From Arthrobacter citreus (GTDB lineage Bacteria > Actinomycetota > Actinomycetes > Actinomycetales > Micrococcaceae): a stretch of 64,000 nucleotides of DNA. Shown piece after piece: positions 2,732 through 60,352 of the stretch; position 1 is the first letter of the stretch; every line of letters starts with the position of its first letter. The notes below the pieces were generated by a model, which did not search any database, was not told the DNA's origin, and worked only from the letters and a program-made list of their open reading frames with translations. The stretch covers positions 868,001 through 932,000 of the forward strand of contig NZ_CP151657.1 in assembly GCF_038405225.1 (NCBI RefSeq), given 5' to 3'. Position numbers and translations under genes: made by a program.

Positions 2732-3715
2732 ATGCTTTTGCAGACGGAATCGTCACGTACTTTTTTTCGGCGGCGTCCGGTCCTCCGGCGAACGCTCGCA
2801 GCGGCTGCTGCCCTGTTGATCCCGCTGACCGCCGGTTGCGCCGGGGTAACGGCAACAGAACAGGTCAAGGCTGCGGCAGAGTCCACCACGAAGGCAGCGC
2901 CGTCCGATGCACTGCCGGAGCAGGAAGCACGCCAGCTCGACGACGCCTTAACGGATTACGCCGCTGAGACCGGCTCCCAGTTTTCCGCGGCAATTTATGA
3001 GAAGTCGACCGGACGGTCCTGGTATTACAACGACGGCGGAACGTATCTGGAAGCCAGCCTGGTGAAGGTCCCGATCCTGCTGACGCTGCTGCGGCAGGCG
3101 ACAGAAGAGGAACGGCAGCTGACGCTGGAAGAGGAATACCTTTCCGTCATGATGATCGAGTACAGCGACAATGACGCGACGACTGAGCTGTACCAGTCCG
3201 TTGGCGGGGCACCTGAGTTGTCCCGGACGTATGAGCTGCTGGGGGTAACGGAAACCAGCGCCACGGAAATCTGGGGAGCCAACGACACCCGGGCCGGGGA
3301 TCAGCTGAAGATCGCCCGTGCGCTCCTAGAAGGGGTGGACTGGATCAGCGGCGGCCTGCAGGATTACGCCGTCGAGCTGATGGAAAACGTGGAGGACAGC
3401 CAGCGGTGGGGGATCAGCGCCGGGCTGGAGGAGAGCGGCGCCAAGATCGCGCTGAAAAACGGTTGGCTTCAGGACGATGACCTGGCGTGGAACGTGGGAA
3501 GCGTCGGCTTTGTGCGCGCCGGCGGCTCTGAATACGCGGTGGTGGTCCTGACAGCCGGAAGCGGATCAATGGAGGACGGCATATCGGCGGTGGAGGAAGT
3601 GGCCGGGGTCATTAACGCTTTCGAAACGACCGGAGGCACCAGTACCGGGATCCCGGGCAGGGACACCGGCGACACGCACGGCTCCGTGTGGCGGGCCGGT
3701 GGCCCGGAAGCATAG
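2732..3715 (+). CDS. Class A beta-lactamase-like serine hydrolase, lipoprotein
   Basis: This 327-residue exported protein has an Arg-rich n-region, a hydrophobic stretch and the lipobox LTAGC (Cys about 36), so it is probably a lipoprotein on the outer face of the membrane. The serine-acylase motifs are SLVK (Ser109, Lys112), SDN in YSDNDA, and KNG in place of KTG. This fits the beta-lactamase 2 / PBP-like hydrolase family. Whether it opens beta-lactams or acts on cell-wall peptides cannot be read from sequence, and the KNG motif argues for a non-classical substrate. The ATG at 2732 is chosen because the signal peptide starts there; an earlier GTG/TTG frame is open for 33 more codons. Confidence 0.82.
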   Translation: MLLQTESSRTFFRRRPVLRRTLAAAAALLIPLTAGCAGVTATEQVKAAAESTTKAAPSDALPEQEARQLDDALTDYAAETGSQFSAAIYEKSTGRSWYYNDGGTYLEASLVKVPILLTLLRQATEEERQLTLEEEYLSVMMIEYSDNDATTELYQSVGGAPELSRTYELLGVTETSATEIWGANDTRAGDQLKIARALLEGVDWISGGLQDYAVELMENVEDSQRWGISAGLEESGAKIALKNGWLQDDDLAWNVGSVGFVRAGGSEYAVVVLTAGSGSMEDGISAVEEVAGVINAFETTGGTSTGIPGRDTGDTHGSVWRAGGPEA

Positions 3716-28416: not shown

Positions 28417-30099
28417 ATGGCGGAATTTATCTACACGATGACCAAGGCCCGCAAGGCCGTTGGCGACAAAGTTATCCTCGACGACGTAAGCATGTCCTTC
28501 TACCCCGGTGCCAAGATCGGCGTGGTGGGTCCCAACGGTGCGGGTAAGTCCACCATCCTCAAGATCATGGCCGGACTGGATACCCCGTCCAACGGTGAGG
28601 CCCGGCTCAGCGCCGGCTACACCGTGGGCATCCTGCTCCAGGAACCGCCGCTGAATGAGGAAAAGACCGTACTCGGCAACGTCCAGGAGGGCGTTGGCGA
28701 GATTTATGCAAAAATTCAGCGGTTCAACGAAATTTCAGAAGCTATGGCAGAGCCTGACGCAGACTTTGACAGCCTGCTGGAGGAAATGGGCAAGCTGCAG
28801 GAAGCCATTGACGCCGCTGATGCCTGGGATATCGACTCCCAGCTCGAGCAGGCCATGGACGCACTGCGCTGCCCGCCGCCCGAGGCTGACGTAACACTGC
28901 TCTCCGGTGGTGAGCGCCGGCGTGTGGCATTGTGCAAGCTGCTGCTGCAGAAGCCTGACCTGCTGCTCCTCGATGAGCCCACCAACCACTTGGACGCCGA
29001 GAGCGTTCTGTGGCTCGAGCAGCACCTGTCCGCGTACCACGGCGCCGTTCTGGCCGTGACCCACGACCGGTACTTCCTGGACCACGTGGCCCAGTGGATC
29101 GCCGAAGTGGACCGCGGACACCTGTACCCCTACGAAGGCAACTACTCCACGTACCTGGAGAAGAAGCGTGCCCGTCTCGAGGTCCAGGGCAAGAAGGACC
29201 AGAAGCTGGCCAAGCGCCTGACGGAGGAACTGGACTGGGTCCGTTCCAACGCCAAGGGCCGCCAGACCAAGTCCAAGGCCCGTCTGGCCCGCTACGAGGA
29301 AATGGCCGCCGAGGCGGACCGCACCCGCAAGCTGGACTTCGAAGAAATCCAGATTCCGCCGGGCCCGCGCCTGGGCTCCCTAGTGCTGGAAGCCAAGGAC
29401 CTGCAAAAGGGCTTCGGCGACCGCCAGCTCATCGAGGGTCTGTCCTTCTCCCTGCCGCGCAACGGCATCGTAGGCGTGATCGGTCCGAACGGTGTGGGTA
29501 AGTCCACGCTGTTCAAGACCATCGTGGGCCTGGAAGAGCTCGACGGCGGTGACCTGAAGATCGGCGATTCGGTCAAGATCTCCTACGTTGACCAGTCCCG
29601 CGGCGGCATCGATCCGGAAAAGAGCCTCTGGGAGGTTGTGTCCGACGGGCACGACTGGATCCAGGTCGGCCAGGTCGAAATGCCTTCGCGTGCCTACGTC
29701 TCGGCGTTCGGCTTCAAGGGCCCGGACCAGCAGAAGAAGGCCGGTGTGCTCTCCGGTGGTGAGCGCAACCGCCTGAACCTGGCGATGACGCTCAAACAGG
29801 GCGGAAACCTGCTCCTGCTCGATGAGCCCACTAACGACCTCGACGTGGAAACCCTCTCCAGCCTGGAGAATGCGCTGCTGGAATTCCCCGGCTGCGCCGT
29901 GGTGGTCTCTCACGACCGGTGGTTCCTGGACCGGGTGTCCACCCACATCCTGGCCTACGAGGGCACCGAAGAGAACCCGGCGAACTGGTACTGGTTCGAG
30001 GGCAACTTCGAGGCCTACGAGCAGAACAAGATCGAGCGCCTGGGCCCGGATGCGGCCAAACCGCACCGCGTGACCCACCGCCGTCTGACGCGCGACTAG
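28417..30099 (+). CDS. ettA: Energy-dependent translational throttle protein EttA (ABC-F ATPase)
   Basis: This 560-residue soluble protein has two ABC cassettes. The first has GPNGAGKST (about 42), LSGGERRRVALCKLLL and LLLLDEPTNHLD. The second has GPNGVGKST (about 358), LSGGERNRLNLAM and LLLLDEPTNDLD. Between them lies the charged linker (EVQGKKDQKLAKRLTEELDWVRSNAKGRQTKSKARLARYEEM) that reaches the ribosome. An insert after Walker A of domain 1 (the arm) supports EttA. In E. coli EttA binds the E site and gates the first elongation step by ADP/ATP ratio. It is a single-gene unit closed by a hairpin. Confidence 0.97.
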   Translation: MAEFIYTMTKARKAVGDKVILDDVSMSFYPGAKIGVVGPNGAGKSTILKIMAGLDTPSNGEARLSAGYTVGILLQEPPLNEEKTVLGNVQEGVGEIYAKIQRFNEISEAMAEPDADFDSLLEEMGKLQEAIDAADAWDIDSQLEQAMDALRCPPPEADVTLLSGGERRRVALCKLLLQKPDLLLLDEPTNHLDAESVLWLEQHLSAYHGAVLAVTHDRYFLDHVAQWIAEVDRGHLYPYEGNYSTYLEKKRARLEVQGKKDQKLAKRLTEELDWVRSNAKGRQTKSKARLARYEEMAAEADRTRKLDFEEIQIPPGPRLGSLVLEAKDLQKGFGDRQLIEGLSFSLPRNGIVGVIGPNGVGKSTLFKTIVGLEELDGGDLKIGDSVKISYVDQSRGGIDPEKSLWEVVSDGHDWIQVGQVEMPSRAYVSAFGFKGPDQQKKAGVLSGGERNRLNLAMTLKQGGNLLLLDEPTNDLDVETLSSLENALLEFPGCAVVVSHDRWFLDRVSTHILAYEGTEENPANWYWFEGNFEAYEQNKIERLGPDAAKPHRVTHRRLTRD

Positions 30100-58628: not shown

Positions 58629-59987
58629 CTACAGCCCCAGGACAGCCGAGGCGATCAGGAAGTAGATGATCAGCCCCGTGGCATCAACAAACGTGGAAAT
58701 GAAGGGATTGGAAAAGACTGCCGGATCCGCTTTGAGGGCCTTGCCCAGCAACGGCATCAGGGCGCCGACGCTGGCTGCCATGGTGCAGACGCCCAGCAGG
58801 GTCAGGCCGATCACCACGCCCAGCGGCACGGTGAAAATGACGGCGGCTACGGCAAACCCCAGGCTGCCCAGCAGCACGCCCAGCCAGGCACCAACCCGTG
58901 CCTCCCGGGCAAAGACCTTGAGGACGTCCCGCGGCCGCACATCGCCCAGGGCCAGGGCGCGGGTAATGGTGGTCGCGGCCTGGTTGCCGGTGTTGCCGCC
59001 GGTGCCAATGAGCAGGGGAATGAAAAGGGACAGCACCACCTGCTCGGCCAGGGTCGCCTCGAAGGCGCCCATGACCTTGACCGTCAGCGTGGCGCCCAGG
59101 GCGAGCACCAGCAGCCACACGACGCGGGCGCGCACGATGGTGCGCACAGGTGTGGCCAGATAGGGCCGGCGCAGCGGTTCAGCGCCGCCGGACCGTGCAG
59201 CGTCCTCGCTTTCGGCGTCCTCAAGGATTCTGAGGGCATCGTCCACGGTCAGGATGCCCACCAGCCGGCCTTCGGCGTCGACGATCGGCAGCACCAGGAC
59301 CTTGGCGTCAGCGCAGTACCGTGCAGCTTCCTCGGCATCCAAGGTGGCCGGAGCGGAGAGCGGGTCCTTCATCAGGGCCGAAACGGGATCCGTTTCCTCC
59401 GCGCGCAGCACATCCCGCAGCGACACCACGCCCACCAGATGATGGGTCTCATCAACAACGGGAATGGTGTAAACGCTCTCGGCGTCGTCCAGCCTGGCCC
59501 GTACCCTGGCCAGGGCCTGGGCTGCGGTGAACCAGGGGTGCGCCGTGACGAACTGTGGGCTCATGTAGCGGCCGACGGCGCCCTGCGGGTAGCCGAGGAC
59601 CGTGTTGGTGAGTGCGCGCTCCTTGGCATCCAGGCCCAGGAGCAGCCGGTTGGCCACCGAGGCCGGCAGCTCATCAAGCAGGGCCACCCGGTCATCGGGA
59701 CTCAGCCCGGCAAAGACCTCAGCCACCTGCGCATCCTGCAGCCCGGCCACCAGATCCGCCTGGAGCAGGGCATCGAGGCGTTCGAAGACCTCCAGGGCCC
59801 GGCCCTTGGGCAGCGTGCGGAAGGCCAGGGCCCGGTCGATGGTGTTCAGCCGTTCAAGCTGCTCCATGGTTTCGGCTACGGTCAGCGGCTCCAGGGCACG
59901 GGCAACCCCGGGCAGGCTGTTCTGATCCAGTGCATCGGCGAGCAGCTCGGCCCGGGCATCAAACGTCAGGGTGGGGGACTTGATCAT
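58629..59987 (-). CDS. mgtE: Magnesium transporter MgtE
   Basis: This 452-residue Mg2+ channel/transporter has an MgtE N domain of helical repeats (about 10-125: LDALLQADLVAGLQDAQVAEVFAGLSPDDRVALLDELP), two CBS domains (VYTIPVVDETHHLVGVVSLRDVL and VLVLPIVDAEGRLVGILTVDDAL) that sense cytosolic Mg2+, and five membrane helices with the signature LLIGTGGNTGNQAATTITRAL. The ATG at 59987 follows ggagga. The leader of about 360 bases contains a short Pro-rich ORF, which suggests control at the RNA level. Confidence 0.96.
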   Translation of the reverse strand: MIKSPTLTFDARAELLADALDQNSLPGVARALEPLTVAETMEQLERLNTIDRALAFRTLPKGRALEVFERLDALLQADLVAGLQDAQVAEVFAGLSPDDRVALLDELPASVANRLLLGLDAKERALTNTVLGYPQGAVGRYMSPQFVTAHPWFTAAQALARVRARLDDAESVYTIPVVDETHHLVGVVSLRDVLRAEETDPVSALMKDPLSAPATLDAEEAARYCADAKVLVLPIVDAEGRLVGILTVDDALRILEDAESEDAARSGGAEPLRRPYLATPVRTIVRARVVWLLVLALGATLTVKVMGAFEATLAEQVVLSLFIPLLIGTGGNTGNQAATTITRALALGDVRPRDVLKVFAREARVGAWLGVLLGSLGFAVAAVIFTVPLGVVIGLTLLGVCTMAASVGALMPLLGKALKADPAVFSNPFISTFVDATGLIIYFLIASAVLGL

Positions 59988-60352
59988 GATCCGGTTTCCT
60001 CCGGTGGGCGCACACAAATGGCCAGCGGGCGCGCGGCCGTGGTGTGTGCGGAAAATGAGCGGGAATGCGGAAATACCGCTGCCGCACAAGCTCAGGCCCT
60101 AAAGGGAGGTCCGAATAATACTCGAGGGGACCTGGGGTGGAAGGCGAGGCTCACGCGGGGCGGTATATCGACTATGTCCGTCGTCCATGCGTGCGGTTCA
60201 CCTCCTGCCGTTCTCAAGTCTTACGGCCGGGCGCGCCAAAGCGGCGTGCCGGGCCCGGATGATGCTTCGATCGTACTTCACTCAGAGTGTTGCCGTGTGC
60301 CGGTGGTGTGCGGGAGCACGTCACATCACCACCGGTCCGGCTCCTTCCCGCC
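59988..60352 (-). promoter_or_regulatory. mgtE leader region (no full-length gene)
   Basis: These 365 bases separate mgtE from the upstream reductase stop. They hold a 29-codon ORF (60188-60099) with a strong ribosome site, a hairpin-rich stretch between it and mgtE (for example tgcggcagcggtatttccgca around 60067-60087), and GC-rich inverted repeats near 60220-60250. No standard M-box was recognised in the sense orientation. Confidence 0.6.
60099..60188 (-). CDS. Putative Pro-rich leader peptide of mgtE
   Basis: The 29-codon ORF starts ATG at 60188. The anti-Shine-Dalgarno match aggaggtga (60206-60198) is almost perfect, though 9-12 bases from the start, a little long. The product begins MDDGHSRYTAP and continues with a core PREPRLPPQVP, so 5 of 11 core residues are Pro, mixed with Arg and Glu. 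It ends TAG, 111 bases before mgtE. Pro- or acidic/Pro-rich leader peptides that stall or destabilise ribosomes control Mg2+ transporters in enterobacteria; a like role here is inference. Confidence 0.62.
   Translation of the reverse strand: MDDGHSRYTAPREPRLPPQVPSSIIRTSL

Follow-up and report, generated by a model that had tools for sequence, protein, structure and literature searches.

Why is mgtE, the gene of a Mg2+ transporter, preceded in Arthrobacter citreus by a 29-codon open reading frame with a ribosome-binding site of its own? A first-pass annotation of the window, i.e., the whole stretch of 64,000 nucleotides analyzed here, had placed this upstream ORF (uORF) 111 bases before mgtE, credited it with a near-perfect aggaggtga ribosome site and recognized no M-box on this strand. 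All three observations hold: the uORF runs from ATG to TAG, its stop codon is separated by 111 nt from the mgtE start (ATG 59987, preceded by GGAGG), 9 nt lie between the end of its Shine-Dalgarno sequence and its start codon, and an Rfam scan of the window leader yielded neither an M-box nor any other family, all three matches being far under the gathering scores (Table 1). The mechanical list of ORFs opens the mgtE frame further upstream, at TTG 60089. The leader (59970-60260) is structured, with a fold z of -2.32 and 4 of 200 shuffles folding equally well. The genome carries one mgtE, with two further, partial matches of 30 and 38% identity, and one corA. The pattern TA[ACG][ACG]AT, represented in the window by TACGAT, is found 87-118 nt 5' of the uORF in 23 of 31 Arthrobacter-type leaders, compared with 1.6 expected from mononucleotide shuffles. 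Transcription probably starts at this -10-like box, and the uORF would thus lie within the leader transcript.

Table 1. Features of the mgtE leader in the window
Feature	Position	Strand	Basis
-10-like box TACGAT, putative leader promoter	60270..60275	-	pattern kept in Arthrobacter-type leaders
uORF Shine-Dalgarno AGGAGGTGA	60198..60206	-	sequence; GAGGTG-led uORF in 83/130 leaders vs 48/2860 shuffles
uORF, 29 codons, MDDGHSRYTAPREPRLPPQVPSSIIRTSL	60099..60188	-	sequence, conservation and codon changes
Acidic codons 2-3 (GAC GAC)	60180..60185	-	codon 2 D/E in 53/53; codon 3 acidic in 47/53
Rare codons AGT CGA (codons 6-7), near-invariant	60168..60173	-	CGA 53/53, AGT 50/53
Segment 1, helix 5' arm within the uORF	60149..60166	-	AUACCGC and CGCGUGAGC pair with segment 2; covariation
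Segment 2, helix 3' arm	60073..60091	-	GCUUGUGCG and GCGGUAU
C-rich, G-poor stretch, candidate Rho-loading site	60042..60069	-	C minus G composition
Stem-loop CGCACACA / TGTGTGCG adjoining the mgtE ribosome site	60009..60050	-	consensus fold, 23 leaders; weak covariation term
Small hairpin CCGG-AGGAAA-CCGG with the mgtE ribosome site	59991..60004	-	consensus fold
mgtE, 452 aa Mg2+ transporter	58629..59987	-	Pfam MgtE_N, CBS and MgtE above cut-off

Conservation of the uORF was assessed in 143 distinct mgtE leaders with a criterion blind to the peptide, namely, GAGGTG, a start codon 4-12 nt on, and an ORF of 12-60 codons. Such a GAGGTG-led small ORF lies 5' of mgtE in 83 of 130 actinobacterial leaders, whereas shuffling gave one in 48 of 2860 leaders and the reverse strand in 5 of 143. 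When the 13 leaders fetched after their uORF had been seen (L231-L242 and L257, from a draw of 40 leaders whose uORF-less members were not carried over) are included, the count is 96 of 143, with the uORF absent from the other 47; that draw, made separately from mgtE leaders of the family, gave 19 with the uORF and 21 with none. Because it is conserved in relatives, the 29-codon ORF is confirmed, on comparative grounds, as real and more than a chance occurrence. At the DNA level, the leader matched in 11 of 59 near genomes (its own included), all from one genus; these are the genomes of the genus that have a strong mgtE match, and in its other genomes the best mgtE match has an E of ~1e-14. 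A strict pattern of the element occurs in 17 of 158 family genomes, once in each and always upstream of mgtE, and the reversed pattern, used as a control over the same 158 genomes, gave no match; the window misses the strict pattern by its final base, codon 8 being TAT. An RNA model of the uORF start, run against 246 genomes of the phylum, made the window's own genome stand out (2.3e-7). The weak matches fetched (best, 4.5e-4) were rejected as mgtE leaders because, among the 30 loci fetched, only the own locus holds mgtE within the fetched stretch.

The peptides encoded by these uORFs begin with MDDG, MEDG, MDGS, VEDS, LDES or MDSES in the window's family, with MSSDS, MSGDS or MPSDS in Microbacterium and Leucobacter records, and with MRSEPPS in further genomes of the class. 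An acidic residue is present in codons 2-4 of 77 of the 83 uORFs (90 of 96 with those fetched later), compared with 386 of the 2334 remaining starts of these leaders; among the six exceptions, five are acidic further on and the remaining one, L139, looks unrelated. Codon changes were counted, per uORF nucleotide, on a tree of 53 MgtE proteins, which covers 53 of the 96 uORFs, the rest belonging to other families or being read in a different register (L045, L047, L048, L232-L235, L252 and L255). Codons 2-4 accumulated 2, 2 and 21 changes at positions 1, 2 and 3, so that 21 of 25 are third-position changes (binomial p 2.6e-7; given that the sequences are related by descent, neither binomial nor shuffle p-values in this work are strict probabilities). 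On a 45-row tree, without the eight rows fetched after sight, the counts are 1, 2 and 15 (15 of 18, p 1.9e-5). In codon 2, every one of the 12 changes is at the third position and D or E is retained in all 53 rows. Codons 9-16 show no such excess, with 47, 73 and 69 changes (p 0.20) on the 53-row tree and 34, 56 and 59 (p 0.064) on the 45-row tree. The third-position excess in codons 2-4, and none in 9-16, thus indicates that the acidic start is kept as peptide, with selection acting on M-[D/E]-D-[G/S]; the same codon behavior suggests that the uORF is translated. Codons 6-8, AGT CGA TCT, scarcely change (AGT in 50, CGA in 53 and TCT in 47 of 53 rows), and in the mgtE genes of 31 loci AGT makes up 4.6% of the serine codons, CGA 2.7% of the arginine codons and TCT 1.8% of its family, so these rare codons appear to be kept as codons or as nucleotides. 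AGT falls within codons 3-7 in 85 of the 96 uORFs.

The uORF's 3' half can pair with a stretch situated about 100 nt 5' of mgtE (segments 1 and 2 in Table 1). The 38 distinct Arthrobacter-type leaders were reduced to 34 for arm swaps by dropping 4 near-duplicates and to 31, by then dropping L045, L047 and L048, which have another 3' part, for ribosome-site access and for residue and codon counts. The core of segment 2 was located by an automatic rule in 28 leaders, where it begins 94-141 nt 5' of mgtE; with L036 and L039 added by hand and L011 removed, the helix counts use 30 leaders, 23 of which entered the consensus fold. In the 30 leaders, 81.3% of the cells of 17 pairs are paired, compared with 27-48% for slid arms, and 16 cells are changed on both sides, compared with 6.2 in shuffles (0 of 500 as high); two of the five measures are not above shuffles, namely, pairs changed on both sides (139/500) and further pair types (201/500). 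In a second clade with different sequences (12 of 17 rows, those with GAGTTCG), a helix is found at the corresponding place, with 97.2% of the cells of 9 pairs formed and 10 double changes compared with 4.1 in shuffles (0 of 500 as high); the exchanges in adjoining pairs include C-G to U-A and A-U to G-C, and neither pairs changed on both sides (319/500) nor further pair types (500/500) are raised. Arm swaps between species gave a mixed result, with means of -32.0 kcal/mol for own and -29.2 kcal/mol for foreign arms, and 17 of 33 foreign arms matching the window's own. Dinucleotide shuffling of the arms gave z < -2 in 14 of 35, 5 of 24 and 4 of 35 leaders in three groups. The last group, which mixes other families with a few Micrococcaceae, has arms about as complementary as expected by chance (mean z, -0.49). 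The comparison of sequences thus shows a helix with compensatory changes in two clades, both from one family, and this is as far as it reaches. Separately, CGGGAA late in the uORF (codons 19-20) and TTCCC 5' of segment 2 recur in many Arthrobacter-type leaders and could lengthen the helix.

These results divide the earlier reading of the uORF as a selected leader peptide. The first-pass annotation had expected the start, the ribosome site, a synonymous excess and a proline core to be conserved in relatives; the start and the ribosome site are indeed kept, the excess is present in the acidic N-terminus, and the proline core, which it had emphasized, did not bear scrutiny. A P-P pair at codons 17-18 occurs in 1 of the 31 Arthrobacter-type leaders, the window's own, and in the congeners L013 and L014 a 1-nt deletion alters the peptide after codon 8 while the helix is retained (-41.8 and -37.8 kcal/mol). 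Among the same 31 leaders, 29 retain P11, 21 retain E13 and 20 retain P14; this region supplies the 5' strand of the long-range helix, and the retention of these residues is therefore explained by RNA pairing. With codons 9-16 lacking a third-position excess, the proline core was rejected as a selected feature.

Directly behind segment 2 lies a C-rich, G-poor stretch (C, 0.47; G, 0.11; 28 leaders), in which C minus G averages 10.1 per 28 nt, a value reached by 0 of 20000 random placements. Judging from this composition, the stretch could serve as a Rho-loading site. An intrinsic terminator at the T-run behind segment 2 was dismissed because the run is missing from part of the leaders, and the pairing of segment 2 with the C-rich stretch when segment 1 is masked, frequent in single folds, was set aside as inconsistent. 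Closer to the gene, the consensus fold contains a stem-loop adjoining the mgtE ribosome site and a small CCGG hairpin around the site itself, the latter being retained in the 3 of 23 sequences where a G-C pair has become U-G. In several of the leaders L236-L251, the hairpin that contains or flanks this site is CCAAAC/GTTTGG, where the window has CCGG. Masking of segment 1 had no consistent effect on how open the mgtE ribosome site was predicted to be (mean, 0.385 vs 0.409 free; 31 leaders), nor had four states of the ribosome on the uORF in the same 31 leaders, and sequestration of the site by the long-range helix was rejected on this ground. Because predicted access to the ribosome site is not consistently changed, the modeling favors regulation of transcription over regulation of translation.

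Taken together, these features are probably best explained by a cis-acting, translated mgtE leader in which ribosome progress sets the RNA fold and, hence, mgtE expression. Ribosomes would load at the near-maximal ribosome site and make a peptide opening M-[D/E]-D-[G/S]-x-S-R-S. A ribosome that moves beyond codon 8 would unzip the long helix that joins segment 2 to the 3' half of the uORF, whereas loss or halting of the ribosome early on would let the helix form. When Mg2+ is low, the acidic start and the rare AGT-CGA-TCT behind it would destabilize the ribosome, the helix would form, the C-rich Rho-loading stretch would go unused and mgtE would be transcribed; at high Mg2+, the uORF would be read through and transcription would stop before mgtE. 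Mg2+ as the signal fits the identity of the gene and the resemblance to MgtL, and it is by analogy with MgtL that we propose ribosome drop-off, the involvement of Rho and the direction of switching.

In the published accounts of MgtL, ribosome drop-off at an acidic and proline-containing start at low Mg2+ alters the RNA fold and reduces Rho termination, and corL/corA is described as following the same leader logic as mgtL/mgtA (PMC11282234, PMC11552253); one of these accounts reports that, for E. coli mgtA, an involvement of Rho was not observed (PMC11552253). With MgtL and CorL of enterobacteria, as described there, the present leader shares a short uORF ahead of a Mg2+ transporter gene, a uORF lying in one arm of an RNA stem (here, in two clades of one family) and a pyrimidine- or C-rich region as a possible Rho site (here, the C-rich, G-poor stretch). 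Acidic residues near the N-terminus, here kept by selection, are a further likeness to MgtL, whereas the proline of the MgtL start is not kept. The order of elements is also like that of MgtL in kind: an acidic start, rare codons, a part of the uORF to be unpaired, and a C-rich stretch. However, the transporter (MgtE) and the phylum are different, the likeness is one of anatomy, and we do not class the leader as an MgtL. From this analogy, we think it reasonably likely that the leader works like MgtL of mgtA, on another transporter in another phylum.

Other known leaders are more distant. The M-box (ykoK) riboswitch also controls genes of the MgtE type from the leader and is described with uORFs in mycobacteria (PMC12810186), but its covariance model (RF00380) has no match in the window or in the mgtE leaders of 20 related loci, where the sole M-box, in L142, is outside the mgtE leader. 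In Bacillus subtilis, mgtE is reported to be controlled by a riboswitch (PMC12288461, PMC3641672). Ribosome profiling of Mycobacterium abscessus is reported to have revealed ribosome-protected uORFs before mgtC and mgtE (PMC4974804); the one ahead of this actinobacterial mgtE resembles the present case, but it is described as overlapping an M-box and is called a vcgB homolog (PMC4974804). Among our loci, the Mycobacterium-type mgtE leaders L071, L079, L095 and L102 lack a GAGGTG-led uORF such as this one. The Thioalkalivibrio mgtE motif is likewise a structured leader ahead of mgtE, but its description sets it apart, with occurrence in one genus only, the AUG of the gene in the P4 stem, and a uORF not mentioned in the part consulted (PMC11109978). 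The ilvB attenuator of Corynebacterium, as described, combines an actinobacterial uORF with alternative stems but differs in the reading of amino-acid codons, the intrinsic terminator and the gene controlled (PMC11109978, PMC10272879). In the passages retrieved from the open full texts searched, M-box leaders are described and the present element is not.

Several other explanations of the uORF were weighed. That it is a functionless chance ORF is suggested by its shortness alone and contradicted by its conservation and codon behavior, and the probability of this is next to nothing. A different reading accepts translation and makes the uORF a codon-reading attenuator, with AGT-CGA-TCT slowing the ribosome in response to charged Ser/Arg tRNA or general translation stress rather than Mg2+. 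The retention of these codons despite their low usage in mgtE, along with the recurrence of AGT in codons 3-7, speaks for such a device, but there are just two or three codons of this kind, the acidic pair ahead of them would be superfluous, and the gene downstream encodes a Mg2+ transporter rather than belonging to an amino-acid pathway whose codons the uORF would be expected to hold, with no run of such codons beyond AGT-CGA-TCT. We consider this attenuator unlikely.

The near-invariance of the nucleotides in codons 6-8 would also be compatible with a metal-binding RNA aptamer, i.e., a riboswitch, at the uORF start, with the ORF as no more than a by-product or the expression platform. A GAY-7nt-RUC hairpin can be drawn there, 95.6% of its three inner pairs form, and over five pairs both the fraction of paired cells (0/500) and the covariation score (2/500) exceed shuffles. 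However, double changes are at the shuffle level (69/500), the closing pair is lost in L232, L233, L234 and L252, which have GAG at codon 3, there is no Rfam match in the scanned leader, and the third-position excess in codons 2-4 is the behavior of codons; this makes the aptamer quite improbable. The GAC/GUC mini-hairpin (80% paired over five pairs) was not accepted as an established structure, given the same level of double changes and the loss of the closing pair with GAG. Translational coupling or ribosome-site sequestration, in which uORF translation would alter access to the mgtE ribosome site, could draw on the placement of that site within a conserved small hairpin beside a stem, but 111 nt separate the uORF stop from the mgtE start and predicted access is not consistently changed across four states in 31 leaders, so that we give this explanation a very small chance.

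If the preferred reading, a translated leader in which the ribosome responds to Mg2+, is correct, Mg2+ sensing by an unstable ribosome on a leader peptide, known from enterobacterial mgtA, would have a second case in a distant phylum and on another transporter, making it a general way to measure Mg2+. Natural variants in the acidic positions and the helix arms make the ribosome-destabilizing residues and codons directly testable. A wider possibility, about which we are rather more doubtful, is that Actinomycetota have their own, independently evolved Mg2+ leader-peptide switch, with the acidic start and rare codons turning the ribosome into the sensor and the helix reading its progress, and with the M-S-S-D-S, M-D-E-S-S and M-R-S-E-P-P-S forms belonging to one phylum-wide system. 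The same window contains an ABC-F gene of the ChvD/EttA type above the TIGR03719 cut-off (28423-30087, plus strand), which we take to be EttA and count in favor of the preferred reading. In E. coli, EttA is described as rescuing ribosomes on acidic leader codons (PMC11282234).

Some related loci have peculiarities of their own. L142, an actinobacterial locus, combines an mgtE that has a uORF of the MRRRSS..DSEPSHS form with the M-box riboswitch mentioned above (3156-3330, minus strand; 106.8 bits). The record of L043 is titled Sporosarcina beigongshangi and holds a typical Arthrobacter-type mgtE with its leader; it is probably mislabeled. In the congeners L007-L013, a tRNA gene (called in L009, with the same 3' end in L007, L008 and L010-L013) and a terminator-like hairpin lie 5' of the mgtE leader, replacing the upstream gene of the window.
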